This document shows, piece by piece, positions 2,208-21,953 of a stretch of 64,000 nt of DNA. Position 1 is the stretch's first letter, and every line of letters starts with the position of its first letter. The notes beneath the pieces are model-generated. The model saw only the letters and a program-made list of their open reading frames with translations. It made no database searches and was not told the DNA's origin. Made by a program: the position numbers and the translations under genes. Source of the DNA: Sulfurospirillum deleyianum DSM 6946. Lineage in GTDB: Bacteria; Campylobacterota; Campylobacteria; Campylobacterales; Sulfurospirillaceae. Location of the stretch: the NCBI RefSeq assembly GCF_000024885.1, contig NC_013512.1, positions 1,798,001 through 1,862,000 on the forward strand. Direction: 5' to 3'.

Positions 2208-2210
2208 ATC

Positions 2211-3932: not shown

Positions 3933-4786
3933 ATAGACTCTCCTTGTATCATCAATCTAATACCATCTTCTATCGTATAAGGATTTTTAAGATCTAACTT
4001 CTCTTTTGTGATGCTATTGTCAACTGCCAAACTTCGATAAAGTCGCTTGTGAAATGATGGTTTAACTATTTTCAGTAATAACTCAAAAAAAGGTATTTTT
4101 ATTAGATATATTTTTTTAGAAAGATTTTTTGCTATGAGTTCTATCAATTTTGAAGTACTTAAAGGCTCATCATCACTAGCTAAAAATACACCGTTTTGTT
4201 TTTGAGTTATTATCTTATCTATCATATGACAGAGATTTCCTATATAAACCATACTTCGTTTGTTCTCAATCCCCCTAAAAGGTAATAGAGGAATTTTATT
4301 TACAAGATGTAAAAGGCTTTTTATATTTGCTTTTACTCCATATCCATATACGATAGGAGTTCTTATGATACTTACTTTAAAGTTTTCGTTTTCTAATTTT
4401 TGAAGTTCGATTTCTGCTTTTAATTTACTTTTTCCATACTCATCTTCAGGATTGCAAACACTATTTTCAGCATATTTAGATTCCGTCTCTTCTCCATATA
4501 CTTTCACTGTACTCATAAAAAGAAAGTATTTTACTCCACTCTCTTTTGCTTTTTTTGCTAATTTTAAAGTCTGAACAACATTTACTTTTTCATATTCCTC
4601 AGCACTCGCTCCAGCCATTTGATGTACTAAAGCAGAGAGATGTAAGATAATATCAATTTCTTGACAATCCAAGATATTGATATCATCTTGTAAAAAACTA
4701 AAAGTTTTTATTTCATACTTTTCTTTATATTTATTTATAAAATAGCTTCCTAGAAAGCCCCTTGAGCCTGTAATTAATAGTTTCAT
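3929..4786 (-). CDS. NAD-dependent epimerase/dehydratase, WbpV/WbpK-like 4-ketoreductase
   Basis: A 285-residue extended short-chain dehydrogenase. The N-terminus has the nucleotide-binding GSRGFLG motif, STVKVYGE follows the strand carrying the catalytic Ser/Thr, and YGKSK provides the catalytic Tyr and Lys. It resembles reductases that act on UDP-4-keto-6-deoxy-HexNAc produced by WbpM-type enzymes. It sits directly upstream of the WbpL-like initiating transferase (4-base overlap). The substrate assignment rests on context; a generic hexose epimerase cannot be excluded. Confidence 0.75.
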   Translation of the reverse strand: MKLLITGSRGFLGSYFINKYKEKYEIKTFSFLQDDINILDCQEIDIILHLSALVHQMAGASAEEYEKVNVVQTLKLAKKAKESGVKYFLFMSTVKVYGEETESKYAENSVCNPEDEYGKSKLKAEIELQKLENENFKVSIIRTPIVYGYGVKANIKSLLHLVNKIPLLPFRGIENKRSMVYIGNLCHMIDKIITQKQNGVFLASDDEPLSTSKLIELIAKNLSKKIYLIKIPFFELLLKIVKPSFHKRLYRSLAVDNSITKEKLDLKNPYTIEDGIRLMIQGESI

Positions 4787-4789
4787 AAC

Positions 4790-5608
4790 TTATAAACTTC
4801 TTATAATACTATATACAATTTTTAAAATTTTTATTGGCATTAATCTAACTGGAACTCTTATGAACATATTTTTAATAAGTTCAAGAGTTGAAATAAATCC
4901 AATATTTCTAAATTCCTTTAATAAAGTTAGCTCACTTTTCACATAAACAATGCCACTTCGTCTTTTAAGCATATCATCACCTGCTCGCATGTTCAGAAGT
5001 ACTTCTTGAATATTGTAGAACTTTGCACCTTGTACTATCATTCTCCCCCATAAATAATAGTCTTCCATTAACATCATTTTTTGATATCCACCTGAATTTT
5101 GAACTACAGCCTTTTTATACATAACAACTGGATGATTTATAGGACATCTAGTTTTTGCATATTTTATTATGTCATTATGATTTTGAGGTAGCTTTCTATA
5201 TCTTAAAATCTCATTTTCGCTACAAACAAACTCACTTATCCAAGCACTAGAAACATCAACATTGTTATTTTCGAAAACTTTTAATTGCTTTTCAAACCTA
5301 TATGGTAATGAAATATCATCTGTATCCATTCTAGCTATCAAGTCATAACAACAATGTTGTACGCCAATGTTGAGGGCATCACCCAAACCAACATTCTGTT
5401 CTAAAGGAACAGTTATAAAAACATCTTTTAATTTTTCTTTCCATTTTTTTATCTCTTCATACAATTCAAGAGTTAATTTTCCATCTTGAACTAGAACTAT
5501 CTCATTCGGTTTAATAGTCTGGTCATCCCAAATACTTTGCATAGCTCTATTAAAGTACTCAGGTTTTTCTTTGTAATAAATTGACATTAGTACTGAAAAC
5601 TGATTCAA
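4790..5608 (-). CDS. GT2 family glycosyltransferase (AmsE-like)
   Basis: A 272-residue GT-A enzyme beginning with FSVLMSIYYKE and containing an IVLVQDG strand, ARMDTDDIS (the DxD-type metal/nucleotide site near residue 95) and MMLMEDYYLWGR as the likely catalytic acid region. Proteins of this type add Gal or similar residues during O-unit assembly on the cytoplasmic face. It overlaps the upstream GT11 gene by 4 bases and lies in a row with GT11 and GT6 genes, so it could build the beta-Gal acceptor those enzymes need. The donor is not predictable from sequence alone. Confidence 0.82.
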   Translation of the reverse strand: MNQFSVLMSIYYKEKPEYFNRAMQSIWDDQTIKPNEIVLVQDGKLTLELYEEIKKWKEKLKDVFITVPLEQNVGLGDALNIGVQHCCYDLIARMDTDDISLPYRFEKQLKVFENNNVDVSSAWISEFVCSENEILRYRKLPQNHNDIIKYAKTRCPINHPVVMYKKAVVQNSGGYQKMMLMEDYYLWGRMIVQGAKFYNIQEVLLNMRAGDDMLKRRSGIVYVKSELTLLKEFRNIGFISTLELIKNMFIRVPVRLMPIKILKIVYSIIRSL

Positions 5609-6411
5609 AATAAAATCCTTCTTTCATTTGGTAAAAATATTTTTCTTAGATTATTGGGAGTCCAATATTCAGGCGAAATTACGACACTGTTTTCATTATT
5701 TGCTAATGCACTAGCCCATAGAGCAAATGTACTTGAAGACAGAATACGGTATTGATATCTACCTATTAAATAAAAATCATCATAAATATTATTCCCAATA
5801 AATTTATAATCAATATTCAGTTCATCCAAAATAGTTTTAGCATAATTTGTATCATCCGTAACTATATGAAACTTATCTCGCTGATATTCACTTTTCATAA
5901 TATCAATAGCTTTAATATAATATTCTTTCGGAGAAACAATATTCCATCCAAGTTTTACAAAATCCCCACCTCGAATATGAATAACACAATATTCTTCATT
6001 TTCATCATATTTACTTGGTATGAAAATCTCTTTTAATATTTTTATCTCACTATTAAAATCTTCTTGTAATAAACAATCTTGAAAATAACCATCTAAAATT
6101 ATGAGTTGCTTATTGGGATATTTCATTCCCCATTGAAAATTTTTATCATTAATAAATGGATAAAAAGGAAATTTAAGTGGAAATATTTTAGGAATTCTAA
6201 AATCAAGAATTTTATTTCTTATATATTGGACTTCAATATTTTTAAAATCAAAAAAATAAACTAACTCATTTTTGTGTTTTATTTCATATTTATTAAGTCC
6301 AGATATATCGATTAAAATCTTTTCTAATCCTAATCTTTTTGCCAATAACAATGCAGCAGATAATTGAAAAATTTGATTACCTAAGCCTCCTACCAATCTT
6401 ACTAAAATCAA
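5605..6411 (-). CDS. GT11 family alpha-1,2-fucosyltransferase (or colitosyltransferase)
   Basis: The 268-residue protein opens with VRLVGGLGNQIFQ, the classical GT11 start. It has HIRGGDF at 145-151, a variant of the HxRRGDY donor-binding motif with Gly for the second Arg. Near the C-terminus SSSTFALWASALA matches the third GT11 motif. Family members put L-fucose on O2 of galactose using GDP-fucose, and some use GDP-colitose. It overlaps the downstream GT2 gene and sits 1 base after the GT6 gene, an order reminiscent of blood-group-like O-antigen loci. Which donor it uses depends on whether the cell makes GDP-fucose, GDP-colitose or both. Confidence 0.85.
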   Translation of the reverse strand: MILVRLVGGLGNQIFQLSAALLLAKRLGLEKILIDISGLNKYEIKHKNELVYFFDFKNIEVQYIRNKILDFRIPKIFPLKFPFYPFINDKNFQWGMKYPNKQLIILDGYFQDCLLQEDFNSEIKILKEIFIPSKYDENEEYCVIHIRGGDFVKLGWNIVSPKEYYIKAIDIMKSEYQRDKFHIVTDDTNYAKTILDELNIDYKFIGNNIYDDFYLIGRYQYRILSSSTFALWASALANNENSVVISPEYWTPNNLRKIFLPNERRILF

Positions 6412-6412
6412 T

Positions 6413-7189
6413 TTATCTCCTATGCCTGAACATTTTTTTTAACATTTTAATAATAAGAAATCGAATATTATAAAATACTCCCTTGTGTTTTATACTTATT
6501 ATTTTCTCTTTATCTTGAACTATAATTTTTTTATTAATATCGATACTATAATGCTGAGGATAACAAAAACTAGGTGAAAGAATATTAAATTTTTCTTTAT
6601 TATTTTGTACATAATTATTTATATGGCTTTCATCATGCCAAATTGCGATTATACTTTCTGAAAAATCTTTATCTATATTATCATCTAATATCTCTGCCAT
6701 CTTAAGAAAATCATTTTTTATTCCACCATTAAATCCACCACATACATAAATGCTATCTACTTTTTTTTCAGTATAAGCTAAAGATTTTATATTTGTTTCA
6801 TAAGTAAACTTTTGAGGTTTTTTATCAAAAAAACCTGGATGCAAGGTAGCAAACAACTCTTTATTGGCAAATAAGTCATTTCTTGAAATTTTTTCGTTAA
6901 ATAATAGATTTGCATTACAAAATATTAAATAATCCATATCTTGGAATACTGTTTTATACTTTATGAATGTTTTATATCTATACAAAGTTGGATATGGCCA
7001 ATCCATCTTTTCTTGAAAAAATGAATGAATTCTTTCATTATTAATATTTAACAGTTCCCTATTATCCGTAAAAAGAAAATAGTGTTTTTCTTCATTTGTT
7101 AAGAATAATTCTTCTGAACTTTTATAAAAATTTTCCCAAAATTTCCAATAATCACCTGTACATATGTACAATATTCCAATTTTATTCAT
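6413..7189 (-). CDS. GT6 family glycosyltransferase, histo-blood-group ABO-type homologue
   Basis: The ATG at 7189 is chosen because AGGAG lies just upstream and it forms an ATGA overlap with the previous gene; a longer frame reaches 7300 but runs through that gene. The 258 residues align along their length with human ABO transferase landmarks: a YFLFTDN strand, WPYPTLYRY, LHPGFF at 116-121, FTYE, GGFNGG at 151-156 and WHDESH at 184-189, which carries the catalytic Glu187. The human DVD metal motif is replaced by NAN at 92-94, as known for metal-independent bacterial GT6 enzymes. GT6 enzymes add alpha-1,3 Gal or GalNAc, often to Fuc-alpha-1,2-Gal. The Gly at the position matching human residue 268 hints at GalNAc, an inference. 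Confidence 0.88.
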   Translation of the reverse strand: MNKIGILYICTGDYWKFWENFYKSSEELFLTNEEKHYFLFTDNRELLNINNERIHSFFQEKMDWPYPTLYRYKTFIKYKTVFQDMDYLIFCNANLLFNEKISRNDLFANKELFATLHPGFFDKKPQKFTYETNIKSLAYTEKKVDSIYVCGGFNGGIKNDFLKMAEILDDNIDKDFSESIIAIWHDESHINNYVQNNKEKFNILSPSFCYPQHYSIDINKKIIVQDKEKIISIKHKGVFYNIRFLIIKMLKKMFRHRR

Positions 7190-8523
7190 TGATATCTCCT
7201 GTTTGATTTTAAAAAAATATATGAAAATATTAAAAGGTAATCCCCGAAAATCAAATATCTTGATTGAAAAAAACCAATGGATATCGCAAATAAAAGCCAA
7301 AATATAAAAGTTAATCCCATAAACTTATAGGTTATATTATTAATATCTTTTTTCCTATAAAAATTTACTAAGAGAAGTATTATAAACATACTCCTTATAA
7401 ATCCCTCTAGTATATTAAAAACAATAGCATATGAATTTGTATTTCCATAAGGAAACCTAAATAAATAGATAATATTCACTTCACTAAAAATTGTTAATAA
7501 AAATTTCACTGGGAGTTTATACAGTAGTTCTAAAATACTCATAGGAACATAGTCCATTTTATATCCCCAAAGCTCTTCTGTATCAAAGCCAAAAGGGATA
7601 TACATTGGACTTTGAAAAAAATTTATATTGAACAATAAATCTAAGAAATATATTGACAATATAAAGATAAATAAAATAAAAATATAAGTTTTAAATAAAT
7701 TTTTAATAAATGACTTTTTAGTGTTATAGTTTAATAAATTAGAAATTTTACTAAAAATTATTATTGCCACAATATTAAATCTAGAAAGAAATGAAGCTAA
7801 AAGTGAAATGAATATTATTCTTTTTGAAATAACTTTTTTATTCTTAAATAATAAATAAAACAATATTGCCAAAAAAACATAATATAAAACTTCTTTTGAT
7901 AGTGATGCGATCCAATAGATTGGTCCAGGTAACAATAACATCAAAAAAGAAATACTATAAATTTTATTTTTACTTAAATTTGTCATTTTTAAAATATATA
8001 TAAAGAAGAAAAACATATAAGAATAAATAAATAAATTTATCATTGGTAAAATTTGTTCTTCAATTCCAAATATTAAAAACATTCCCCCATAAAGGTAAAC
8101 GATCAATGCCCAATTAGGAGACATCTGCGTACCATAATATAATGCAAAATCTGTATTTACAACAGACAATCCATTAACAAGATTTTTGGCCACATACACA
8201 TACATACCACTATCAAAATATTCATCAGGAGCGATTACACTTATTATTTCATTCTTAGGGTAATAATACGCAAAGTAAAAAATCACATATCCTATGAAAA
8301 AAACTAAATATCTACTTATGTTAAAAGAAACAAAACTCTCCGTAGGAGAATCTTCCGTTTTATGTAAAAAAAAAGAATCTAAATATGTCAATACTAATAT
8401 AAAATAACAAAAATATATAATATTTATATCTATTGATCTCTTTCTAATTGTTAATAAAACTAAACAAATAATTAATATATTTGATAAAAATTGTAAAAAT
8501 AAAATTTTTCTATTTAATATCAT
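7186..8523 (-). CDS. Polytopic membrane protein, O-antigen polymerase (Wzy) candidate
   Basis: A 445-residue very hydrophobic protein with about ten to twelve predicted membrane segments. A larger extracytoplasmic loop near residues 95-130 contains DEYFDSGMYVYVAKNL. The locus has wzx and wzz but no other obvious polymerase, and the gene sits between wzx and a glycosyltransferase with 4-base overlaps on both sides, the usual place for wzy. Wzy sequences are too divergent for a firm call. The DE-containing loop also recalls GT-C mannosyltransferases, so a lipid-linked sugar transferase is the main alternative. Confidence 0.55.
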   Translation of the reverse strand: MILNRKILFLQFLSNILIICLVLLTIRKRSIDINIIYFCYFILVLTYLDSFFLHKTEDSPTESFVSFNISRYLVFFIGYVIFYFAYYYPKNEIISVIAPDEYFDSGMYVYVAKNLVNGLSVVNTDFALYYGTQMSPNWALIVYLYGGMFLIFGIEEQILPMINLFIYSYMFFFFIYILKMTNLSKNKIYSISFLMLLLPGPIYWIASLSKEVLYYVFLAILFYLLFKNKKVISKRIIFISLLASFLSRFNIVAIIIFSKISNLLNYNTKKSFIKNLFKTYIFILFIFILSIYFLDLLFNINFFQSPMYIPFGFDTEELWGYKMDYVPMSILELLYKLPVKFLLTIFSEVNIIYLFRFPYGNTNSYAIVFNILEGFIRSMFIILLLVNFYRKKDINNITYKFMGLTFIFWLLFAISIGFFQSRYLIFGDYLLIFSYIFLKSNRRYQ

Positions 8524-9719
8524 ATTTTAAACTTATAGACTACAAAAAAAGTTAATATACTATAACTCAAGTATGAGATAATAAAAGCATATAATGCACC
8601 GTTCATTCCATAAAATTTAACTAAAAATAAAAAAGCTATCATTGAAACTATTCCTGAAATAATATTTGGCATTAATAATAGTTTTGTTTTATTGTGTGCA
8701 AATATTTCTGAAGTAATTGACATTGTTAGCGAAAACAATGAATATGTTAAAAACATAGGTACTAGCATCCAAGCTCCCCCAATGTATTTAACATCAGATA
8801 AAATAGTAACTATATATTCAGAAAAGAAATTAATAAATAATGCTCCAAATATCATTATGAAAAAACCTATAATTAATATTTTTTTATTAAATTCTCTAAT
8901 TGAACCTTTTTTTTCCTTTTCTTTTTTATATAGTATTGGCATAAAATACATTCCAAAAAAAGCTTGTAATGCTCCTGGAATTATTACCACCAAAGAATTC
9001 ATTACAGCAAAAAGAGCTACATCCTCTAAAGTGAGATAATATTCTATTATCCACCTATTAGACATATCTCTCATCCAGCCAAATATCCCCCAAATAGCCA
9101 AAGGAGAAGCAAAAATATATATCATTTTTGCCCAATAAAAAAACTGAACCCTATTTGGAAAATTGAAATCTGAATTCTTAGGTTTAGAATAGATAATAAT
9201 TACTATATTTACTATTATAAATATGGTAAATACTCCCATAGTAGAATTTGAGAGAATAGACAATAACACTAATTTCAAGAAAAATTCAACAAAAATAGAA
9301 TTAAGATATTTTTTTCTATTTCTTAAAGAATTTATAAATATATAGTTATTAATTTTTAATACTTCACTTACAATATAAGCCATAACTACAATATATTCAA
9401 CACCATCAATATTTATCAGATTAGAAAAAAATAAAATCATTGTTAAAACTATATAGATTACAAAAAATGCTATATCTAATATGAAAATTGTTTTGTAAAC
9501 ATCAATAGCTCTCTTTTGTGATAATACAGATGTATACTTTGTCAAAGCTTGTTGAATGGCTGTAAAAGGAAATGTAAAAATGATTGCACTGAAGGATAAG
9601 ATCAAAGCATAAAGCCCAAAATCTAAACCAGATAGCTTTGAGGTAAGTATCTTAAAAACCAGAAGTCCTCCACCCATTTGAATAGCCTGAGTTAATACAG
9701 TGTAATATATTTCTTTCAT
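8520..9719 (-). CDS. wzx: O-unit flippase, Wzx-like (MOP/MATE superfamily)
   Basis: A 399-residue protein with about twelve membrane segments, starting with a short EIYYTVLTQAIQMGGG segment and a LDFGLYAL element, both typical of polysaccharide exporters in the Wzx/RfbX group. These flip undecaprenyl-linked O-units to the periplasm for Wzy. It overlaps the GT2 gene upstream and the polymerase candidate downstream by 4 bases each. Length and topology fit. The gene is very AT-rich, like its neighbours, consistent with horizontal acquisition. Confidence 0.82.
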   Translation of the reverse strand: MKEIYYTVLTQAIQMGGGLLVFKILTSKLSGLDFGLYALILSFSAIIFTFPFTAIQQALTKYTSVLSQKRAIDVYKTIFILDIAFFVIYIVLTMILFFSNLINIDGVEYIVVMAYIVSEVLKINNYIFINSLRNRKKYLNSIFVEFFLKLVLLSILSNSTMGVFTIFIIVNIVIIIYSKPKNSDFNFPNRVQFFYWAKMIYIFASPLAIWGIFGWMRDMSNRWIIEYYLTLEDVALFAVMNSLVVIIPGALQAFFGMYFMPILYKKEKEKKGSIREFNKKILIIGFFIMIFGALFINFFSEYIVTILSDVKYIGGAWMLVPMFLTYSLFSLTMSITSEIFAHNKTKLLLMPNIISGIVSMIAFLFLVKFYGMNGALYAFIISYLSYSILTFFVVYKFKI

Positions 9720-10594
9720 TTAATTCTTTTAAAAATGAAACAAGGTATCAATAATTTTAATAGTGCTTTAAAAAAATTTAAATCAAAAAAATTTCTATAT
9801 GTAATATTTTTAAATAAAAAATATTTTATTGCATAAATTTTATTGCATTTTCCAAAACTTCCAAGCCATCTAATATTCCACTTTCTCAAAGCTTCATCAA
9901 AAATTGGTTCATTTGAATATTTTAAGATTATCTCTTCTTCTGCTTTTTGCATTTTTGATATATTACTAGATAAACTTAATGCATTACCAACTCTGTATAA
10001 AGCTAAATATTCATCTACATAACCTATTTGATTATCTTTTGTTATTTTCAACCACATCTGAAAATCTTCAATATATCCTTTGTCATAATTATATTTCATA
10101 AATATATCTTTATTTATAAGTGTTGTTAAACTATTAATAAAAAAATTTCCACAAAGTAAACTTTCAAATATATTTCCTTTTTCTCCACCATCTTTAATCT
10201 TACCTATAATTTGATTTTTCATATTTATAAAATACATATTAGAATAAACCATTGCATATTGAGGATTATTTTCAAGATAATTAACTAAAACTTCAATTTT
10301 GTTATCTACAAACGCATCATCAGAAGCCAAAAGTGAAATATATTTTCCTCTGGATAGACTTCTTAATTTTTCTATAGTAAAAATTAATCCTTGATTTTCT
10401 TGTTTATAATATTGAAAACTATATTTGACTAACAGTTTTTGTGCTACATCATCTGAATTATCAGTAGAACCATCATTTATTACTATTAATTCTATATTCC
10501 TGTATGTCTGTTGCATAACACTTTCAATAGCAAATTCAACAAAACTTTCATGGTTATATAATGGTATTAATACCGAAACTAATGGTTTATTCAT
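9716..10594 (-). CDS. GT2 family glycosyltransferase
   Basis: A 292-residue GT-A enzyme with a textbook N-terminus: VSVLIPLYNHESF, VMQQTYRNIELIVINDGSTD (nucleotide site), and LLASDDAF near residue 95 as the DxD-like motif. GYIEDFQMWLK carries the likely ED catalytic region. It should add one O-unit sugar at the cytoplasmic face. A 4-base overlap links it to the GT11-like gene upstream and to wzx downstream. Donor and linkage cannot be predicted. Confidence 0.85.
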   Translation of the reverse strand: MNKPLVSVLIPLYNHESFVEFAIESVMQQTYRNIELIVINDGSTDNSDDVAQKLLVKYSFQYYKQENQGLIFTIEKLRSLSRGKYISLLASDDAFVDNKIEVLVNYLENNPQYAMVYSNMYFINMKNQIIGKIKDGGEKGNIFESLLCGNFFINSLTTLINKDIFMKYNYDKGYIEDFQMWLKITKDNQIGYVDEYLALYRVGNALSLSSNISKMQKAEEEIILKYSNEPIFDEALRKWNIRWLGSFGKCNKIYAIKYFLFKNITYRNFFDLNFFKALLKLLIPCFIFKRIK

Positions 10595-11460
10595 TCTAAG
10601 TTTTCCAAAAATAAAATATTTTTATCTTTTATATTATCAATAATATACTTATTTAGTTTTTCTTCAAATACCCATTCTGATAGAGATATAATAATTTTAT
10701 TATGATTAATATTCAACCATGCAAAAAACAAACTAAAACCACTATTAGCAATAATATTATGCTTACTTAAAGTCATCAAATGAAACTCTTCGTAGTCTTG
10801 AAATCCTTCAACAAATTCAAATTCAACATTATCTAAAAAATTAAAATTGGGCTTAAGCCAATCAAGATCATCTGAAAAGATTAGTAATTTCATTTTCAAT
10901 AAATTCTTTGATATATATTGAAGTGCTTTTTTATAGTATTCCAAACTACAAGTACAATGTAATTTCGATGCATTATCATCATGCGCAAAATCACTACTTT
11001 GCTTAGCCAAAAAATGATTTGTTGAATCCATATATTCAGATTTTAAAGTCAATTCTTTCTGTAAAATTTCTTTTATATGACTAAAATATCTATCTCCACT
11101 CCATTCTCCCTCAACATAAATATTATCTGGAAGCAAATTGAAATTCTCCAAGGAAATAAAACTTTCATTACAATAATTTCTATAATTTATTTTCCAGTTA
11201 GTAAATTTCTGAAATAAATTATTAATTTTTAATAAATACTTATTGGGTTTAAACTGTTTTATTTCTTGCTCTGTTGCAATCTTTGCAACCACATTATATT
11301 TGTCTAAGTGATATTCTCTAATAGTATCAGAACCTGAAATATTATCAAACCAAAAAATATCAAGTTTTAATTCAGTATTATATTTTAGAGACAATGCTCT
11401 ACCAACTGAGTACTTATGTAATTGACTCGCCAAGCCACCCATTATTTTTATTATTATCAT
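10591..11460 (-). CDS. GT11-like fucosyltransferase paralogue lacking the HxRRGDY motif
   Basis: This 289-residue protein matches the GT11 gene at 16525-17412 from end to end ([10 protein letters not shown] start, a GEW element near 118-120, CSLEYY, FSDD, NSGFSLFFAWLN). Between LTLK (137-140) and CSL (171-173), however, it is 12 residues shorter than the paralogue. The missing piece includes most of the donor-binding HIRRGDY motif, leaving SSDFAHDDN. The frame is intact, so this looks like an in-frame deletion of 36 bases near 10993-11000. The product is probably inactive, or at best an altered enzyme. It is a recognisable family member whose function is doubtful. Confidence 0.7.
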   Translation of the reverse strand: MIIIKIMGGLASQLHKYSVGRALSLKYNTELKLDIFWFDNISGSDTIREYHLDKYNVVAKIATEQEIKQFKPNKYLLKINNLFQKFTNWKINYRNYCNESFISLENFNLLPDNIYVEGEWSGDRYFSHIKEILQKELTLKSEYMDSTNHFLAKQSSDFAHDDNASKLHCTCSLEYYKKALQYISKNLLKMKLLIFSDDLDWLKPNFNFLDNVEFEFVEGFQDYEEFHLMTLSKHNIIANSGFSLFFAWLNINHNKIIISLSEWVFEEKLNKYIIDNIKDKNILFLENLE

Positions 11461-11461
11461 A

Positions 11462-12073
11462 TTAAATATCCAATTTTCTTATCACTTTTGCAGGATATCC
11501 ACCAGCAATTACATTTTCAGGAATTAATTTTGTAACAACAGAACTATTTGCTATCACACTATTGTCTCCAATAGTTACACCTTTTAAAATCTTTACATTA
11601 GAACCAATAAATACATTTTTACCAATAACTACTTTTGCAGTTTTTGGAGTTCCCGTCATTCGTCTCTCTGGATGTAAATCGTGAAAATCACTATCTGTTA
11701 TCTCAACATTTAGTCCAATAAGAGTTTTTTCTCTTATTTCAATCCCTTCACCTTCACTTGTGATCATAAAGTTATTATTTATCCAAACATCATCACCGAT
11801 AACTATTTTTGAATGTTCATTTCTAGTGTCAATATATCCATAACCACTGTAGAGATAAGGGCTTGGCGTTACACCAAGGTTTACATTTTTACCAAACACG
11901 ATTGTCCCCCCCCCTAATAGTTGAGTTGGCTGATTATAGATTGGTTTGCCAACTATATTTTTACAGTTTGATAACATTTTGTACTTCAAAATTCTTGGGT
12001 ATTGAAAAATAAAATACTCAACGATATGCTTTAGTTTTCGCTTTACCTTAAAGATAAAATTATTTATACTCAT
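11462..12073 (-). CDS. Hexapeptide-repeat acyltransferase (WbbJ-like O-acetyltransferase), poly-G containing
   Basis: A 203-residue left-handed beta-helix protein. Repeats such as [24 protein letters not shown] and [12 protein letters not shown] lead to a [14 protein letters not shown]-terminus typical of the Maa/WbbJ/NodL group. The DFHDLHP segment supplies the catalytic His. It probably O-acetylates a sugar of the polysaccharide. Codons 54-56 are a run of nine G (positions 11906-11914); either a G8 or a G10 tract would stop translation within about eleven codons, so expression is likely phase-variable. As read here the frame is ON. It overlaps fdtB by 14 bases. Confidence 0.85.
11906..11914 (-). 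repeat. Homopolymer G9 tract (coding strand) in the acetyltransferase gene
   Basis: Nine consecutive C on the plus strand, read as GGG GGG GGG (Gly54-56). Long G tracts in low-GC Campylobacterota genomes are known contingency loci. Changing the tract by one base either way leads to early stops (TAA shortly downstream in both alternative frames). Confidence 0.9.
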
Positions 12074-13160
12074 TTAAAACCTTAACAATCTGCATAGTAT
12101 CTTCCAAACTCTGAACACCACTAATAGGCAAACTCAACACTTCATTATGTATTTGTCCACTTATTGGATAACTATCATTATTCCACTCTTTATAAGCATT
12201 TTGTTTATGTGGAGGTAGTGGATAGTGGATAAGTGTTTGAATGTCATTTTCCTGTAGATATTTTTGTAGTTCATCTCTTTTATTTGTTCTTATCGCAAAC
12301 AGATGCCACACATGATTATCTTCTGCTCTTAAAGTTGGTAAAATTAATTTATCATTTTTGATATTTTGTAGATAATAGTTTGCTATCCCTCTTCTTTTTT
12401 CTACTTCATTATCAAGGTATCTTAATTTTACTCTAAGCATTGCTGCTTGCATTTCATCAAGTCTGCTGTTTATTCCTTTATAAAGATTTTCATATTTTTT
12501 ATGGCTTCCATAGTTTCCTAGTGCTTTTATAGCACTCGCTAATTCTTCATCATTTGTTGTAACTGCTCCACCATCACCTAAGGCTCCAAGATTTTTTCCA
12601 GGGTAAAAGCTAAATCCGCTTGCATCTCCTAGATTTCCACTGCGTTTATCTTCAAAGTATGCACCATGAGATTGGGCTGAGTCTTCTATCACTTTTAAGT
12701 TATGTTTTTTTGCTATTGCGTTTATCTTGCTCATCTCACAAGTTTGTCCATATAGATGTACTGGCAAAATTGCTTTTGTTTTTGAAGTGATTTTTTCTTC
12801 TATTTTAGCTGGGTCTAAAAGAAAAGTATTTATATCTGGTTCTACTAAAATAGGTACAAGATTGTTTTGAGAAATTGCCAAGATAGATGCAATGTAAGTG
12901 TTTGAAGGAACTATCACTTCATCCCCATCGCTCATGACACCCATCTCTTTATATGCTCTTAGAACTAAGATAAGTGCATCAAGACCATTTGCAACACCAA
13001 TGGCATACTTTGTACCACAATACGCTGCAAACTCTTTTTCAAACTCTTTATGTTCATTTCCTTGTATGTACCAACCACTATCTATCACCCTTGTGCAAGC
13101 TTCTATTAACGCAGCTCTATACTGAGTGTTTATGCCTTTTAAATCTAAAAATGGAATCAT
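12060..13160 (-). CDS. fdtB: DegT/DnrJ/EryC1 aminotransferase (FdtB/QdtB-like)
   Basis: A 366-residue PLP-dependent sugar aminotransferase. [14 protein letters not shown] marks the N-terminal cofactor region, [11 protein letters not shown] holds the PLP-contacting Asp, and [15 protein letters not shown] provides the active-site Lys, typical of 3-aminosugar enzymes (FdtB, QdtB, WlaRG). With FdtA, RmlA and RmlB in the same operon it should aminate C3 of dTDP-3-keto-6-deoxy-hexose to give Fuc3N or Qui3N. It is separated by 1 base from the GNAT gene upstream and overlaps the acetyltransferase gene downstream. Confidence 0.85.
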
Positions 13161-13161
13161 C

Positions 13162-13680
13162 TTACAAATACCTCTTATATTTTTCTTTTGTTATTTCATA
13201 TTCACTTTTTTCAAAATTGAAAAAATATTCCAACTCGTTTTCAGCTACCACTTTTGCTCCAAATCTTTGATGAAATGCTGTCACTTTATCATTTCCTTTT
13301 TGAACTTCAAAATGAGATTTTTCAAACCCTAGTGTGTAAAAGGCAAACTCATATATTTGAAGTGCAGATTCTATGGCTGTAGTTTTTGGAGCATCCTCTT
13401 TTATAAGCCAACTTCCCCAGCAGAATGAGTTATTTTTAAAATCATACATTCTTACAAGTCCAAGTTTTTCTTCATCTTTTGATTCGATTACAAAGTAAAA
13501 TTCTTTTTTCTCTTCTTCTCGTTGTTTATAACTTTTTATCCACTCTTTTTGAGACGCAACTGTACCTGTTACTTTTGAAAGATATTTCGTTTTATCTTGA
13601 TTTTGTCTCATGCTATAAATAAACTCTGCATCTTCTATAGTAACTGTTCTCATATTTATATTTTTGCCATAAATGATCAT
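13162..13680 (-). CDS. GNAT family acetyltransferase (RimJ/PseH-like)
   Basis: A 172-residue GNAT protein beginning with [19 protein letters not shown] and ending with a [26 protein letters not shown]-type acetyl-CoA binding and C-terminal segment. It lies between fdtC and fdtB in the dTDP-aminosugar cassette, so a sugar amine is the likely acceptor, analogous to PseH; a protein acceptor cannot be excluded. The 25-base gap to fdtC is unusually wide for this operon and contains a G10 tract. If the tract had 11 (or 8) G, fdtC would end in an ATGA overlap with this start codon. Confidence 0.75.
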
Positions 13681-13705
13681 GCCGCCATTAGGCTAACATA
13701 ACTAT

Positions 13706-14221
13706 CTACCCCCCCCCCTCTAAGCACTCTTTACATGTAAGGCTTTCATCACACTTCTGTCCACATTTGCAAACATACCCTTTATGTTTAGCAGGATTTC
13801 CATACCAAAGTTCTTGAGTTCCTACATCTTTGGTTACAACACTTCCCGCTCCTATCATCGCATATTCTCCAATAGTGATACCACCTACAATCGTACTATT
13901 TGCACCTATTGAAGCTGATTTTTTTATAATAGTTTTTAAAAACTCTTTTGGATATTGTTTACTTCGTGGTAAAAAATCATTTGTGAAAGTTACATTTGGA
14001 CCGATAAAAACATTATCTTCTAGGGTTATTCCATCCCAAACTTGCACACCACTTTTTATGGTTACATTATCTCCTATAATTACATCATTTTCTATTAGAA
14101 CTCCAGCATTGATATTACTGTTATTACCTATCTTTGCATTTTTTAAAACAACACAAAACTGCCAAATATTTGTATTTGCACCAATATGTTTCGTTTGAAC
14201 ATCTGCTAATTTATGAATCAT
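13706..14221 (-). CDS. fdtC: Hexapeptide N-acetyltransferase of the dTDP-3-aminosugar pathway (FdtC/QdtC-like)
   Basis: A 171-residue left-handed beta-helix enzyme starting [21 protein letters not shown] and carrying repeats [24 protein letters not shown] and [13 protein letters not shown]. It matches the FdtC/WbpD group that acetylates 3-amino sugars. The C-terminus is Cys-rich ([15 protein letters not shown]) and ends in three Gly encoded by a G10 tract immediately before TAG. One palindrome copy (13731-13740) encodes LTCK here, the only copy in the AT-rich block. It overlaps fdtA by 11 bases. N-acetylation of Fuc3N or Qui3N is the most likely role. Confidence 0.83.
13709..13718 (-). repeat. 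Homopolymer G10 tract at the 3' end of fdtC
   Basis: Ten consecutive C on the plus strand. As sequenced, FdtC ends GAG GGG GGG GGG TAG. With 9 G the protein ends one residue later in another frame. With 11 (or 8) G the frame runs ten more codons and stops at TGA overlapping the ATG of the GNAT gene. The tract therefore changes the FdtC tail and probably translational coupling. Confidence 0.9.
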
Positions 14222-14615
14222 TATTTACCATCTCTAAGAATGTATCATAGTTAGTAATATAATCACTAGCATCATAATATTCATCAGCTAAAACCATAAG
14301 TACACAATCACCACTAAAATCATGCATCGTTCCCCAAATAAGTGCATCTTGAAAAAGGCCCAAATTTGGTTTGTTCAGTTCATATGTTTTTTTTTCTTTT
14401 CCATTATCTAAAGTAACTTTACAACTTCCCACAACAGATACAAGAAACTGTTTTGTTTTATAATGAGAATGATTTCCTCTAGGAATTCCTTCTTGTGTTC
14501 CGTAGATATAAAAAACTCTTTTGACATCAAAAGGTATTTGTCTATTTGCTTCAAGTGCTATAAGTTGCCCTCTATAGTCTCCTAATACTTTAAATTCTTG
14601 TAAAGTTGTAATCAT
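14211..14615 (-). CDS. fdtA: dTDP-4-oxo-6-deoxyglucose 3,4-ketoisomerase (FdtA/QdtA/WxcM-like cupin)
   Basis: A 134-residue single-domain cupin. [11 protein letters not shown] at the start, KRVFYIYGT, and RGNHSH (the paired active-site His residues), then [15 protein letters not shown] and [13 protein letters not shown], match the FdtA/QdtA family. These move the keto group from C4 to C3 of the RmlB product. Its position between rmlB and fdtC, with 4- and 11-base overlaps, supports the pathway. Sequence alone does not distinguish the galacto (FdtA) from the gluco (QdtA) product. Confidence 0.87.
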
Positions 14616-15655
14616 TTACTAATCCCATATTTATTTAAATACCACTCAATAGTTTTAACTATTCCTGTGTCGAATGTTTCGTTTGCTTTCCACTCTAGTT
14701 CATTTTTTAGTTTTGTGGCATCAATAGCATAGCGTCTATCATGTCCTGCTCTATCTTCTACAAATGTTATTAAACTTTTATATGAAAAATTTGATTTTGG
14801 AACTTGTTGGTCTAAAATAGTACAAATTCTATCTACTATCTGAAGATTTGTTCTTTCATTTCTCCCACCGATATTATAAGTATCTCCTGTTTTACCTGTA
14901 TGATAAACGATATCTATCCCTTTACAGTGGTCAAGTACATAAAGCCAATCTCGGATATTTTTCCCATCACCATAGATTGGTATTGGGTTTCCTTTAAGGG
15001 CATTTCTTATGATAGTTGGGATGAGTTTCTCATCGTGTTGTTTTGGTCCATAGTTATTTGAGCAGTTTGTGATAACAGTATTGAGTCCATAAGTCTCATA
15101 ATATGCTCGAATAATCATATCACTTGAAGCTTTTGAAGCGGAATATGGAGAGTTTGGCATATAGGGAGTGGTTTCTGTAAACAAATCATTTGGGTCAAGG
15201 GTGAGTGTTCCATAGACTTCATCTGTTGAAATATGGTGAAATCTACAGTTTTGATAAGCTTCTTTATAAGTAAAAGGCTTCTCCATCCAATAGTTTTTCG
15301 CTACATCGACAAGGGTATAAGTACCATTTACATTTGTTTGGACAAATACACCTGGGTTTTTGATAGAGTTATCTACATGACTTTCAGCCGCAAAGTGGAT
15401 AACACCTCTTATATCGTATTCATTAAAGATAAACTCTACAAGCTCACGGTTACAAATATCCCCTTTGATAAATTTATATCGTGGATTTTGTTCACACTCT
15501 TTTAGGTTTTCTAAGTTCCCTGCGTAAGTGAGCAAGTCTAGGTTTACTAAATTGTACTCTGGGTATTTTTCTAGGAAATATGGTACAAAATTTGAGCCTA
15601 TAAATCCTGCTGTTCCTGTGAGGAGTAATGATTTATTATTGTTATTGAGCATCAT
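14612..15655 (-). CDS. rfbB: dTDP-glucose 4,6-dehydratase (copy 1)
   Basis: A 347-residue extended SDR with [11 protein letters not shown] at the N-terminus, [21 protein letters not shown] (catalytic Thr-Asp-Glu) and YSASKASSD (Tyr and Lys), all diagnostic of RmlB. It makes dTDP-4-keto-6-deoxyglucose for FdtA, and for RmlC if dTDP-rhamnose is made. It overlaps rmlA by 14 bases and fdtA by 4 bases. A second, less AT-rich RmlB is at 26481-27497, so this one probably travelled with the aminosugar cassette. Confidence 0.95.
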
Positions 15656-16520
15656 CTTCCTTTACTAAATCATAAAGATATTGTCCGTAACCATTTTTAG
15701 AAAGTGGTTTTGCTATTTCTAGCACTTTATCTTTATTTATCCAACCATTTCTATATGCTATCTCTTCAAGGCAAGCTATTTTATATCCTTGTCTATGCTC
15801 TATAGTTTGTACAAATTGTCCTGCTTCTATTAAGCTATCATGAGTACCAGTATCTAGCCATGCAAATCCTCTTCCTAAAAGCTCAACTTTTAATTTTCCT
15901 CTTTTTAGGTACTCTTGATTCACTGTTGTAATTTCTAATTCACCTCTCTCACTTGGCTTAACATTTTTTGCTATTTCAATCACATCATTATCATAAAAAT
16001 ATAATCCTGTTACTGCAAAGTTTGATTTTGGCTTATTTGGTTTTTCTTCTATACTGATTACATTTTTATCTTTATCAAATTCAACTACACCAAATCTTTC
16101 TGGATCTTTTACTTGATATCCAAATATAACTGTTCCATCTTTTAAAGTTGCCACCTCTTTAAGCATAGAAGAAAATCCTTGACCATAAAATATATTATCA
16201 CCCAAGATAAGGCACACACTATCATTGCCAATAAACTCTTCACCTAAAATAAAAGCTTGAGCTAACCCATCTGGAGTTGGTTGAATTTTGTATTTTAAAT
16301 TTATTCCCCAATCACTTCCACCTCCTAAAAGTTCTTCAAACTTTACAATATCTTGCGGAGTTGAAATAATAAGTATCTCTTTAATACCTGCTAACATCAA
16401 AACTGATAAAGGATAATATATCATTGGTTTATCATAGATTGGAAGTAGTTGCTTACTTATACTTCTTGTTATTGGATAAAGTCTTGTTCCGCTACCACCT
16501 GCTAATATTATCCCTTTCAT
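15642..16520 (-). CDS. rfbA: Glucose-1-phosphate thymidylyltransferase (copy 1)
   Basis: A 292-residue nucleotidyltransferase of standard RmlA length. It begins [16 protein letters not shown], then has [23 protein letters not shown] (metal-binding Asp), [10 protein letters not shown] and a [12 protein letters not shown] segment. It forms dTDP-glucose from dTTP and glucose-1-phosphate. The next gene in the direction of transcription is rmlB. The protein is closely similar to the copy at 27494-28357 but is encoded with higher AT content. Confidence 0.95.
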
Positions 16521-16524: not shown

Positions 16525-17412
16525 TTATCTAATTATTGTAAAATTATCTTGTTCAAGGGAATTAAGAATATTTATATTTATTCTATCGTCATTAACCCAT
16601 GTCTGAGGAACTATAATCATCTTATCTTTATTTTGGTTAAGCCAACCTGCCATTAAACTGAATCCACTATTTGCTGTTATTCCATGTTTGCAATATGACA
16701 TTAATAACAAATCTTCAAAATTCTGATTTTTTTCCATAAATCTACAAGACTCGTTTATTACGAAATTTTTTTTTACCCATAATATGTCATCTGAAAAAAT
16801 ATAAAAAATTGGATTGTCTATTTTTTCTTTTACAATTTGAATTGCTTTATAATAATAATCCAAACTACACTTTGCATGAAAAGCTGCAGCATTTTTATTT
16901 GAAAGATAATCACCTCTCCTAATATGAAGAAAAACTGAATTATCACTTGATTTTAATTCTTTTATTGTATTTTGAATATTAATGCTTGATCCTCTTTTTA
17001 ACGTTAACTCATTTTTTATAGTATCTTGATAATCTTCAAAATATTTAAATCCATTCCATTCTCCATCTAAATAAATATCTGATTTTAATTTATGAAAATC
17101 AGATATTGAGATAAAACTTTTATTAATGTAACTCTTTTTATAAATTCTTATTGAAAAAAATTTTTCTATCTTTCTAGCAATTCTATTAAATAAATTATTG
17201 CCTTTCAATTTCTTTATTTCACTTACTGTTGCAATAGTAGCATTTATATTAAAATAATCCAGTTGATATTCCCAAGGCGTATCACTTTTTGGATTATCAA
17301 ACCATGTTAAATCTAATTTCAAAGGAACATTATATTTTAAAGATAAAACACGTCCTAATGCATATTTATGCATTTGACTAGTTAATCCACCCATAATTTT
17401 AATTATTATCAT
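16525..17412 (-). CDS. GT11 family alpha-1,2-fucosyltransferase (or colitosyltransferase), intact motif
   Basis: A 295-residue GT11 protein with [20 protein letters not shown] at the start, GEWNG near 118, the full donor-binding motif HIRRGDY at 163-169, CSLDYY, IFSDD and [14 protein letters not shown]. It is the intact relative of the deleted copy at 10591-11460. It lies directly after the ColD-like gene (4-base overlap), which favours GDP-colitose or GDP-fucose as donor. The acceptor is probably a galactose-type residue by family knowledge; the linkage is inferred. Confidence 0.86.
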
Positions 17413-18572
17413 TTTAATACTTTATATAAATTTTTAATCTCATCTTCTAAACTTATCTGATGATTCCCAACAAACAATCCATTTTCATGCAAATAATCAG
17501 CATTTTTGAGTTCACTATGTATCTCATAATCAAAATATTTCATAACATCATTTCTTGTGAAATTCCCAGTTACTATTGGTCTACAATCTATTTTAGCTTC
17601 CATAAGTTTTTTTACTACATCTACTCGTTTTAATTTTGAATTTGGTTTAATGATAAATGAAAATCCAAACCAAGAACTATTACAAATATCTTTTTGAATA
17701 ATAAAATCAGGATGATTTGAAAACAACTCTTGAAACAATTTTGCATTTTCTCTTCTTTTAGCTAAAAAGTTTGGAAGTTTTTTAAGTTGTTCTATTCCTA
17801 TTGCGCCACTCATCTCTACTGGTCGAACATTGTACCCTGGTAGTACAAACCTAAATGACTCTTCAAACCAATTATCACTTTTAGTACATACTTTATTTTC
17901 TTTTGGAAGATTTCTAGTCCATCCATGAGCTCTTAAAGAGAGTAATATATGATAAAGTTCTTCATCATCTGTTACCACAAATCCACCTTCCATCGTAGAC
18001 ATATGATGAGAAAAGAAAGTTGAAAATGTTCCCATGATTCCAAATGTACCGGCTTGTTTACCTTTATATTCTGCGCCCATAGATTCACAGTTATCTTCTA
18101 AAACGATAATATCTTTATCTTTTGTCATCTCGAAAATTTTATCAAAATCATTTGGATTACCTAAAAGATTTACTACCATAATCATTTTTGTATTTTCACT
18201 AATTGCTTCTTTTAAGGCATCTAAGTCATAATTCAAAGTTTCTAAATCTATATCTACAAACTTTAATTTTAATCCATATTGATGTAATGGATAGTATGTA
18301 GTTGACCATGAAACAGCAGGAACTATGACTTCATCACCTCGCTTAAGCTTTGGATTTTTTGTATAAAAAAGTGCTGCTGTTGCTATTAAGTTTGCAGTTG
18401 AACCTGAGCTTACCATAACTGCATATTTACTTCCAGTAAATTGGCAAAAATCTTTCTCAAACTGTGCAACACTTTCACCCATAGTGTACATATCTCTATT
18501 TATTACATTTTGAATTGCTTCTAACTCTTTTTCATCCCATGTTGATGTTGCTAACGGATAGCTATTTGTCAT
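17409..18572 (-). CDS. colD: GDP-4-keto-6-deoxy-D-mannose 3-dehydratase (ColD-like)
   Basis: A 387-residue member of the aspartate-aminotransferase fold. The usual Schiff-base Lys is replaced: the active-site strand reads STFFSHHMSTMEGG, with His at 189-190 where sugar aminotransferases have Lys. This is the hallmark of ColD, which uses PLP and glutamate to remove the C3 hydroxyl of GDP-4-keto-6-deoxymannose. LEDNCESMGAEY carries the PLP-contacting Asp. Upstream gmd supplies its substrate, and the ColC/Fcl-like gene between them could finish GDP-L-colitose. It overlaps that gene by 11 bases. An aminotransferase such as perosamine synthase is unlikely without the Lys. Confidence 0.85.
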   Translation of the reverse strand: MTNSYPLATSTWDEKELEAIQNVINRDMYTMGESVAQFEKDFCQFTGSKYAVMVSSGSTANLIATAALFYTKNPKLKRGDEVIVPAVSWSTTYYPLHQYGLKLKFVDIDLETLNYDLDALKEAISENTKMIMVVNLLGNPNDFDKIFEMTKDKDIIVLEDNCESMGAEYKGKQAGTFGIMGTFSTFFSHHMSTMEGGFVVTDDEELYHILLSLRAHGWTRNLPKENKVCTKSDNWFEESFRFVLPGYNVRPVEMSGAIGIEQLKKLPNFLAKRRENAKLFQELFSNHPDFIIQKDICNSSWFGFSFIIKPNSKLKRVDVVKKLMEAKIDCRPIVTGNFTRNDVMKYFDYEIHSELKNADYLHENGLFVGNHQISLEDEIKNLYKVLK

Positions 18573-19494
18573 TTAATACCTCTTTTAAGTAATATTCATA
18601 TGTTTTTTTGATTCCATCTTTTAAAGATATTTTATATTTCCAACCAAAGTTTTTAAGTTTAGTATCATCAATAAGCTTTTGTTTCATTCCAACAGGCTGT
18701 GATAAGTCATGCACAAATTCACCCTCAAAACCAATAACTTCTGCTATAACTTTATAATATTCATTTATAGTATAGTCATGTCCTAAACCTACATTTATAT
18801 TTTGTGGTATAGATTCGAAGTTTTCAAGTGCAAAGTATGTAAAATCTGCTAAATCCTCAGCATACATAAATTCTCTTCTTGCTTCTCCATCACCCCAAAT
18901 ATCTAAGGTAGCTTCATTGTTCATTTTTGCTTCATGTATTTTTTTTATTACTGCTGGAAGCATATGAGAATGTTTTGGGTCAAACTTATCATATCTTCCA
19001 TAAAGGTTACATGGTATGATCGTTTTATAGTGAAATTCTTTATTCTCTTTATTAATATATTCACAAAGTCTAGTGGATGTCACTTTTGCTATTGCATAAC
19101 CCTCATTTGTTGGTTCAAGTTCACCTTTAAGTATCAACTCTTCCCCTAATGGATTTTTGGCATATCGTGGATACATACAAGAACTACTCATATTGATGAA
19201 TTTTGTAATTCTAGCTTCATAAGAAGCCATGATGATATTTAGTCCCATTTGAGTATTTTGCACTAAAAAATCAACAGGATGAGCCATATTAGCTTGAATG
19301 CCACCAACTCTCCCAGCACAGTGAATTACAACATCTGGCTTATTTATTTTTAGATACATCTCAACTGAATTTTTATCCAAAAGATTAAGCTCTTTACTTG
19401 ATGGTGTTAAGAGAATATAGTTTTTTGACTTTTCAAACTCTACTATATTTTTCCCAACCATGCCACTTGAACCAGTTATTAATATTTTTTGCAT
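18562..19494 (-). CDS. GDP-colitose synthase (ColC-like) or GDP-L-fucose synthase (Fcl)
   Basis: A 310-residue SDR with TGSSGMVGKNI, VGGIQANMAHPVDFLVQN, SSSCMYPR, GYAIAK (catalytic Tyr and Lys) and GDGEARREFMYAEDLADF. These are shared by Fcl (3,5-epimerase/4-reductase) and ColC (5-epimerase/4-reductase). It lies between gmd and colD. Since ColD diverts the Gmd product, ColC is the more economical assignment, but Fcl or dual use cannot be excluded from sequence alone. Only one such gene is present although three GT11-like genes need a GDP-6-deoxy-L-sugar. Confidence 0.8.
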   Translation of the reverse strand: MQKILITGSSGMVGKNIVEFEKSKNYILLTPSSKELNLLDKNSVEMYLKINKPDVVIHCAGRVGGIQANMAHPVDFLVQNTQMGLNIIMASYEARITKFINMSSSCMYPRYAKNPLGEELILKGELEPTNEGYAIAKVTSTRLCEYINKENKEFHYKTIIPCNLYGRYDKFDPKHSHMLPAVIKKIHEAKMNNEATLDIWGDGEARREFMYAEDLADFTYFALENFESIPQNINVGLGHDYTINEYYKVIAEVIGFEGEFVHDLSQPVGMKQKLIDDTKLKNFGWKYKISLKDGIKKTYEYYLKEVLNDK

Positions 19495-19506: not shown

Positions 19507-20625
19507 CTACTCAAAGTAACTCATGATTTTATAGCCACCCTCTTTAAGATAAACATCTTTTGTCATCAGTTTTAGGTCACTTTTCATCATATCTTCGACT
19601 AGGTTTTGAAGATTGTATTCTCTATTCCATCCTAGTTTTTGTTCTGCTTTACTTGGATCACCCAAAAGAAGATCAACTTCAGTTGGTCTAAAGTAGCGAG
19701 GATCAACCGCTACAACTTCTTTGCCTATTGCTACCTGATATTCTGGGTTCATGCAGGCTTTAACAACACCCACTTCATTCACACCCTCGCCCCTAAACTC
19801 TAACTCAATGCCACAATACCCAAATGCCATACGTACAAAATCACGCACCATTGTTGTTTGACCTGTTGCGATCACCCAGTCTTCTGGCTCATCGGCTTGA
19901 AGAATCATCCACATCATACGCACATAATCTTTCGCATGACCCCAATCACGTTTAGCATCGAGATTTCCAAGATAGAGTTTATCTTGTAAACCAAGAGCAA
20001 TCTTTGAAGCGGCTCTTGTAATTTTACGTGTAACAAATGTCTCGCCACGTACGGGACTCTCATGGTTAAAAAGTATGCCATTGCACGCAAACATCCCATA
20101 AGCTTCTCGGTAATTAACCGTGATCCAGTAGGCATACATCTTCGCAACCGCATAAGGGCTTCTTGGGTAAAAAGGCGTCGTCTCTTTTTGTGGGGTTTCT
20201 TGTACTTTACCGTACAGTTCACTGGTACTAGCTTGATAAATTTTTGTCTTTTTTTCTAACCCCAATAAACGAACCGCTTCTAAAATTCTAAGGGTTCCTG
20301 TACCATCTGCATTAGCAACATACTCAGGTGTTTCAAAGCTCACATGTACATGACTCATTGCAGCTAAGTTATAAATCTCATCAGGCTGTGTTTCTTGAAT
20401 AATGCGTGTTAGATTCATACTATCGGTCATATCACCATGATGTAAAAAGAGTTTGATATCTTTTTCATGAGGATCTTGGTAAAGATGGTCTATTCTATCC
20501 GTATTAAACAAAGAACTTCTTCTTTTTAAACCATGAACAATGTACCCTTTTTTAAGCAAAAACTCTGCTAAGTAACTTCCATCTTGTCCTGTAATGCCTG
20601 TAATTAATGCTACTTTTTGACTCAT
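19507..20625 (-). CDS. gmd: GDP-mannose 4,6-dehydratase
   Basis: A 372-residue SDR of the usual Gmd length. [19 protein letters not shown] at the N-terminus, [35 protein letters not shown] and [10 protein letters not shown] (Tyr and Lys), then [15 protein letters not shown], are all diagnostic. It makes GDP-4-keto-6-deoxymannose, the branch point to fucose or colitose. It overlaps manC by 4 bases and is 12 bases from the ColC/Fcl-like gene. GC content here is higher than in the block downstream. Confidence 0.96.
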
Positions 20626-21953
20626 ATATTTTCCCTTTTAAAATCATCTTCAATTCTAACAATATCATCTTCACCCGTGTAACTTCCCACTTGCGCTTCA
20701 ATGAGTACAATAGGAATTTTACCTTGATTTTCAAGTCGATGAATTTCACCCGCTCTAATATAGGTTGATTCATTTTCTCTTACCATATAACTTTTATCTT
20801 CTACGCTCACCGTTGCGGTACCACTGACGACTATCCAATGTTCATTGCGATGAAAATGCTTTTGAAGACTCAGTCTTTTACCAGGTTTTACTATAATTTT
20901 TTTAATTTTATAGCCTGGTTTATCTTCTAAAACGCTGTACGTCCCCCATGGTCGATGCACGGTTGCATGAGTTTTTGTAAGTTCAATATTCTCTTTTTTA
21001 AGACATCCTACAATCTCTTTGACTTTTTGAGAACTTCCCTTTTGACTAATTAAAAGCGCATCTTCCGTATCAATAACAATTAAGTCCTGCACATCAATCA
21101 AACTGACGTGTTTATGGGAAAGAATAAAATTATTCGCTTCATCATTACTCAGTTCATTGGAGAGGGCATCAAAGCTTCCGACATCACTCCAGCCAATATC
21201 ACTAGGAATCACTTTAACTTTTTGACTCTTTTCCATCACTGCATAATCAATGCTATCTTCAGGAATTACCAGCATATCCTCATGGTGTATACGAATCATC
21301 CCATCGTATTTTGCATGTTCATAAGCTTTTTTACATGTAAGAAAAATTTCTGGTGAATAGATTTCAAGCTCTTCTAAAAAAGTACCTGCTTTAAAACAAA
21401 ACATTCCACTGTTCCAGTAGTAATTCCCTGCTTTTATATAGGCTTCTGCCGTTATACTATCTGGTTTTTCATGAAAGGCTTTCACCTCTTCACCATTGGC
21501 TTCAATGTAGCCAAAGCCTATTTCAGCAAAAATTGGTTGAATGCCAAAGGTAACCAAAAAGCCCTTTTCTGCAAGAACAATCGCTCTATTCACCGCATTT
21601 TCATACGCTATTTGATCTTTAATGAGATGATCACTGGGGGTAACCAGTACAACTTCATTGGGATCTAAAGCCATGCACGCTAACGCAATTGCAGGAGCAG
21701 TATTTCTACCAATAGGCTCTAATAAATAGCGATTATGGAGGCTGTTCAGCTCTTCAAGTTGATCGAGTGCTAAAAAATATTGTTCACTGTTGGAAACAAT
21801 AAACTGTTCATTACACAGTTGACTGTTACGTTTTATAGTTAATTGAAAGAGGGATTGACCATCAAACAACTTGACAAATTGTTTTGGCATAAGAGTACGA
21901 CTTAATGGCCAAAGCCTTGTTCCACTTCCGCCACACAAGATGATATTAATCAT
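20622..21953 (-). CDS. manC: Mannose-1-phosphate guanylyltransferase / mannose-6-phosphate isomerase
   Basis: A 443-residue bifunctional enzyme. The N-terminal nucleotidyltransferase has [15 protein letters not shown] and SDHLIKD. The C-terminal cupin (from about residue 335) has [29 protein letters not shown] and [17 protein letters not shown], the isomerase metal site. It produces GDP-mannose for Gmd; mannose-1-phosphate can come from the mutase at 28360-29730. A TTACATGTAA palindrome copy lies inside (21331-21340). It overlaps the epimerase gene upstream by 8 bases. Confidence 0.94.

Follow-up and report, generated by a model that had tools for sequence, protein, structure and literature searches.

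Bacterial mimicry of blood-group glycans is usually framed around hosts. In Bacteroides ovatus, BoGT6a (PDB 4ayj/4cj8), a family GT6 glycosyltransferase with a GT-A fold and a NAN motif, is a characterized GalNAc transferase that acts on fucosylated Gal (PMC3961637). In the host-associated Helicobacter mustelae, the GT6 enzyme BgtA makes a blood-group A product. Escherichia coli O86 combines WbnI (GT6), WbwK (GT11), and a GT2, and its product is the blood-group B epitope. The E. coli O55 locus (WbgO, WbgN, ColC, and ColD) has a beta-Gal GT2, a GT11 colitosyltransferase, and a colitose pathway for a Col alpha1-2Gal type of structure; the O55 stretch that we read contains no GT6 and hence no A/B-like extension by GT6. 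Colitose is 3-deoxy-fucose. It is also found on a Gal-GlcNAc unit in the polysaccharides of Vibrio cholerae O139 and Aeromonas trota (PMC3210612). Any alpha-GalNAc at Gal in these two polymers would, in our view, stem from chain polymerization. We know of no GT6 involvement in either of them.

In this work, we analyzed a window of 64,000 nucleotides (NC_013512.1, positions 1,798,001 to 1,862,000) from Sulfurospirillum deleyianum DSM 6946, which belongs to the same phylum and order as H. mustelae. S. deleyianum 5175T is a free-living bacterium obtained from anoxic mud (PMC3035281). One O-antigen locus, at about 474-25652 of the window, holds GT6, GT11, and GT2 genes. As predicted from its genes, this locus unites the A/B-type step of O86 with the colitose of O55. 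It has the same GT2-GT11-GT6 logic as O86, and by prediction it shares with O55 the beta-Gal GT2, the GT11 colitosyltransferase, and the colitose pathway; unlike O55, it has a GT6. E. coli O86 makes fucose, unlike what is predicted for the window, and the likeness to O86 is one of gene logic; a search for E. coli GT6 by DNA similarity gave no match. The unit predicted for the window also resembles that of V. cholerae O139 and A. trota in having colitose on Gal-GlcNAc.

Gene content of the O-antigen locus

The features of the locus are as follows, with percent identities to homologs in E. coli, in G010 (a Sulfurospirillum congener), in G352 (a complete genome from another family of the order), and in the contig L003.

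474..4786, minus strand: PglF/WbpM-like dehydratase, RmlC-like protein, WecA/WbpL-like initiating transferase, and NAD-dependent reductase, as read from the sequence
4790..5608, minus strand: GT2, AmsE/WbgO-like, predicted beta-1,3-galactosyltransferase building the acceptor (PF00535, 67 bits)
5605..6411, minus strand: GT11a, predicted L-fucosyl/L-colitosyl-type transferase (PF01531, 58.5 bits; HIRGGD kept)
6413..7189, minus strand: GT6 glycosyltransferase of the metal-independent NAN type, predicted alpha-1,3-Gal/GalNAc transferase
7186..8523, minus strand: predicted Wzy O-unit polymerase, a multi-spanning membrane protein, from position and composition (no Pfam match)
8520..9719, minus strand: predicted Wzx O-unit flippase (73% to the L003 homolog; no Pfam match at 0.001)
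9716..10594, minus strand: GT2b, second inverting GT2 (PF00535, 83.6 bits; 79-80% in G352 and L003)
10591..11460, minus strand: GT11b, probably inactive GT11 (HxRRGD changed to AKQSSD)
11462..16520, minus strand: rmlA, rmlB, fdtA-like, fdtC-like, GNAT-like, fdtB-like, and acetyltransferase genes (most 75-89% to G352)
16525..17412, minus strand: GT11c, WbgN-like, predicted colD-linked colitosyltransferase (HIRRGD intact; 32.5% to WbgN)
17409..18572, minus strand: ColD, GDP-4-keto-6-deoxymannose 3-dehydratase (E. coli ColD structures, E = 2.6e-173)
18562..19494, minus strand: ColC, GDP-L-colitose synthase (59% to O55 ColC, 57% to O111 ColC)
19507..20625, minus strand: Gmd, GDP-mannose 4,6-dehydratase (66% to O55 Gmd)
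20622..21953, minus strand: ManC-type mannose-1-phosphate guanylyltransferase (77.7% to G010 and 67.7% to G352 homologs, in the same operon position)

GT6, GT11a, and GT2 are adjacent on the minus strand, and the profile matches of all three are not due to chance. Across 242 aa, the GT2 is 33% identical to an E. coli O55 gene (L083, 7788-8585) that we take to be wbgO. WbgO is a beta-1,3-galactosyltransferase (PMC4202792). GT11a belongs to a divergent clade common only to L003 and G352, and is 75% identical in both; GT11a and GT11c each have the GT11 profile match together with the HxRxGD motif. Three of the four genes in 474-4786 are syntenic in L003 and G352. The genes in 11462-16520 are predicted to make a dTDP-Fuc3NAc-type sugar, and the GNAT gene among them has no counterpart in the G352 locus. 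GT6, GT11a, GT2, and wzx all have open frames, with dN/dS of about 0.13-0.26.

Within the sugar gene region, the gene at 25666-26481 resembles those for ATP-dependent DNA ligases, and the start of its product is signal-peptide-like; such a gene also adjoins the O-antigen locus in G010. A second rmlB-rmlA pair is found at 26481-28357, apart from the pair at 14612-16520.

The GT6 protein and its donor site

The GT6 open reading frame spans 6413-7300 on the minus strand, and its natural ATG at 7189 overlaps the stop codon of the upstream wzy frame (7186-8523). The initial annotation had described this gene as a GT6 with ABO-type motifs and NAN, placed beside a GT11 and a WbgO-like GT2 in an O-antigen locus, and this description was borne out by the GT11 and GT2 profiles listed above and by the following evidence. 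The catalytic domain matches PF03414 (E = 5.8e-27; 94.7 bits against a cut-off of 25), the NCBIfam NF041524 score is 248, just under the cut-off of 250, and the closest solved relative is BoGT6a (E = 2e-47). The quoted motifs NAN (residues 92-94), LHPGFF, GGFNGG, and WHDESH were all found, and the catalytic/donor residues of CAZy family GT6 are present (N92-A-N94, W184-H-D-E187, and K227). Among the BoGT6a donor-site residues given in PMC3961637, T10, Y13, W66, T70, R73, N95, A96, N97, H122, T134, W189, H190, D191, E192, and K231 are conserved in the window protein, the exception being N69, which is replaced by Pro. The AF2 model (pLDDT 93.7) has BoGT6a as its top PDB match (4ayj_B; Z = 34.0, rmsd 1.6 over 229 residues, 39% identity), and human GTA/GTB match at Z of about 29, which confirms the BoGT6a/ABO fold at the level of structure prediction. 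The protein is a genuine new member of family GT6, modeled with this fold. Comparison with the L003 copy, which is 75% identical, gave a dN/dS of about 0.14 (0.146/1.06), indicating that purifying selection acts on the gene.

The window GT6 is known from sequence and model, whereas for BoGT6a an A-type GalNAc activity has been measured. The two proteins are 38-39% identical, and the window GT6 differs in having Cys for Ala at the 266 position and Pro for Asn69. The GDP-colitose genes of the window locus are a further difference from BoGT6a.

At human positions 235/266/268, the window GT6 has Gly/Cys/Gly. The suggestion of GalNAc transfer that the initial annotation drew from Gly268 is weak because Gly268 is too common among bacterial GT6 (57 of about 80, whichever residue is at 266), and donor choice is not set by residue 268 according to a review (PMC4202792). 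Among about 80 bacterial GT6, residue 266 is Met in 28, Ala in 23, Cys in 10, and Gln in 10; elsewhere, it is Leu in GTA, Met in GTB, and Ala in BoGT6a. The small residue at 266 (Cys) is compatible with GalNAc without proving it, and Gal may also be the donor sugar.

Colitose genes and the probable mosaic nature of the locus

The ColD step is the first committed step of colitose. The window ColD is 66-67% identical to O55/O111 ColD, scores 580 bits to true ColD versus 195 for the next family, and carries His where the PLP lysine would be expected (SHH motif in the sequence). Among the 399 genomes of the order, ColD was found in about 19 (>450 bits). The 59% identity of the window ColC to its O55 counterpart compares with 39.5% to Fcl of the congener G010. 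ColC is the sole strong Fcl-type match in the genome, where no separate GDP-fucose synthase (Fcl), fucose salvage gene, or fucose pyrophosphorylase was found. The choice between fucose and colitose had been left open in the initial annotation; the deoxysugar is most likely colitose because ColD and ColC are encoded and neither Fcl nor a salvage enzyme is detectable. The replacement of fucose by colitose is chemically plausible because GDP-Col and GDP-Fuc are both donors for WbgN and also for human FUT2 (PMC11987014). A side activity of ColC yielding GDP-fucose might count against colitose. Beyond the GT11 at 5605-6411, the locus has two more GT11 genes and complete colC/colD.

The locus is syntenic with that of G352, in which the order is manC, nudix, gmd, Fcl, rmlA, rmlB, fdtA, fdtC, fdtB, acetyltransferase, GT11b (HVRRGD), GT2b, different wzx and wzy, GT6, GT11a, GT2, and wecA-like. 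The Fcl of G352 is 75% identical to that of G010, and a search for ColD in G352 found none. In G235, which belongs to the genus of G352, the order is manC, nudix, gmd, ColC (87%), ColD (94%), GT11, an ABC gene, rmlA, and rmlB; the ten genomes for which the order-wide search gave a GT6 match do not include G235. In the tree, GT11c is sister to the colD-linked GT11 of G235 (100/97). The window joins G235-like and G352-like halves at rmlA-rmlB, and it has the appearance of a mosaic, with fcl replaced by a colC-colD-GT11 cassette. We infer both the direction of this exchange and the order of events.

GT11b has AKQSSD where its orthologs in G352 and L003 keep HxRRGD, and its Pfam match is confined to the C-terminal part, which suggests a homolog of GT11 that is probably inactive. 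The GT11b frame itself is open, and a sequencing frameshift was rejected as the cause of the motif loss, as the other frames hold stops and no HIRRGD. Neutral drift was also rejected, as the branch dN is no higher than in the orthologs; the case for inactivation thus comes from the motif, and such a loss would need to be recent.

L003 is an 11 kb contig binned as Gracilibacteria with a Campylobacterota-like O-antigen locus and a GT6 that is 75% identical to that of the window. Compared with the window, it has another wzy and an extra acyltransferase-like gene. A true Gracilibacteria origin was rejected, as translation with table 11 leaves its genes open and their synteny is with Campylobacterota, and we think that the contig is probably misbinned.

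GT6-GT11 pairing and the predicted O-unit

One scan of genome contigs gave 77 named GT6 loci, with taxa that include Patescibacteria, Methylomonas, Paenibacillus, Mucilaginibacter, Psychromonas, Bacteroidota, Lachnospiraceae, and Helicobacter, and 71 phage records, cyanophages for the most part, have GT6; an earlier count was 36 bacterial species and two cyanophages (PMC3961637). Given so many environmental taxa and cyanophages, the occurrence in a free-living bacterium, which the initial annotation called unexpected, is not surprising; NAN-type GT6 enzymes are ordinary in such bacteria. Within the order, GT6 is rare (a match in 10 of 399 genomes), and 2 of 24 genomes of the genus have it. In the GT6 phylogeny, the window, G352, and L003 form one group (100/100) that is distant from the other Sulfurospirillum GT6 (L031/G010), and therefore simple inheritance within the genus does not account for the gene. 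The Helicobacter GT6, which were recovered in both the contig scan and the order-wide search, form a separate clade. An origin as a plasmid or phage gene was rejected, as only distant relatives (<60% identity) were found there. Unusual gene structures include two tandem GT6 genes in a Synergistaceae MAG (L039:9177-10843), a GT6 fused to a Wzx-like polysaccharide transporter in Prevotella (L057:10001-12013), and a GT6 fused to GT2 and GT4 domains in a Dysgonamonadaceae MAG (L004:9998-12859).

Among 75 non-redundant GT6 loci, a set that takes in the window and G010, GT11 is present in 55 and directly adjoins GT6 in 39 (10.4 expected from random GT11 placement within the same loci), and the two are fused in two further loci; these counts depend on an iterated GT11 profile whose seeds were the GT11s of the window. 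The fusions (L022:1226-2806, Magasanikbacteria MAG, 526 aa; L053:9647-11590, Hoeflea MAG, 647 aa) have NAN, WHDE, and HxRRGD within a single open frame. In cyanophage P-SSM2, GT11 is three genes from GT6, and the pair is kept in three Campylobacterota-type loci. The pairing is not obligatory because 20 of the 75 loci show no GT11 (some of the contigs are short). Free-living and host-associated bacteria, as well as phages, carry GT6 and GT11 mainly as a module. This family-wide pairing supports a two-step order, in which an alpha-1,2-deoxysugar would be added first and an alpha-1,3-Gal/GalNAc second.

The proposal of the initial annotation that the O-unit could carry an A/B-like determinant gains support from the enzyme set and the pairing, with colitose now favored over fucose and the product itself as a prediction. 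The WbgO-like GT2 would add beta-Gal. To this Gal, a GT11 would attach the L-deoxysugar, most likely colitose, in alpha-1,2 linkage, and the metal-independent GT6 would then attach Gal or GalNAc to it in alpha-1,3 linkage. The outcome would be one ABO-type branched trisaccharide per O-unit, (GalNAc/Gal)alpha1-3(Col alpha1-2)Gal, in which the linkages and the GT6 donor are putative. The GT11 serving GT6 may be GT11a, which is adjacent and co-conserved, or the colitose-linked GT11c. For its origin, a gmd-colC-colD-GT11c cassette, as in G235, would have replaced the fcl of a G352-like fucose/GT6 locus; the older GT11b would then have become dispensable and lost its GDP-sugar binding motif. We regard the proposal as a whole, an ABO-type branched O-unit with colitose that arose by cassette exchange, as fairly probable. 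The chances are about even that a single exchange of fcl for colC-colD-GT11c changed an A/B-like determinant into its 3-deoxy-fucose analog, set GT6 to work beside colitose, and left the superseded fucosyltransferase to be inactivated. Our literature search found no report of GT6 activity on colitosylated Gal and no paper linking Sulfurospirillum with GT6, or colitose with a fucosyltransferase and GT6.

It is unlikely that the GT6 acts on another acceptor, such as unbranched beta-Gal/GalNAc or an amino sugar, with a product that is not ABO-like. The GT6 loci without GT11, the wide variation at active-site position 266, and the vertebrate GT6 enzymes that use Gal or GalNAc acceptors (PMC3961637) would fit such a reaction, but the strong adjacency and the fusions, together with the pair conserved in three Campylobacterota-type loci, argue against it. 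A fucose product appears quite unlikely. Here, ColC would also yield GDP-fucose, GT11a and GT6 would make true A/B, and GT11c would place colitose elsewhere. The homology of ColC to Fcl (39%), the three GT11 genes, and the 75% identity between GT11a and the corresponding GT11 of the G352 fucose locus agree with this; however, neither a separate Fcl nor a salvage enzyme was found, fcl is replaced at the syntenic place, and ColD would compete for the intermediate. We consider it very improbable that the locus or its GT6 is silent or decaying, as GT11b seems to be, with no such O-unit made: the HxRRGD loss in GT11b is set against the open frames and low dN/dS of GT6, GT11a, GT2, and wzx and the retention of every catalytic GT6 residue.

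In the colitose-containing O-unit that we favor, the module of S. deleyianum was apparently rebuilt with a sugar that is absent from animals. If true, the locus would offer a compact experiment of nature on whether GT6 and GT11 enzymes follow the available sugar, and it would supply a new glycan (colitose-A/B) with which anti-A/B antibodies, lectins, and phage receptors could be probed. A Riflebacteria MAG (L014:1527-10637) has GT6, GT11, gmd, Fcl-like, and ColD-like (55%) genes on one contig; this second GT6 locus with ColD suggests that the switch from fucose to colitose may have occurred more than once.
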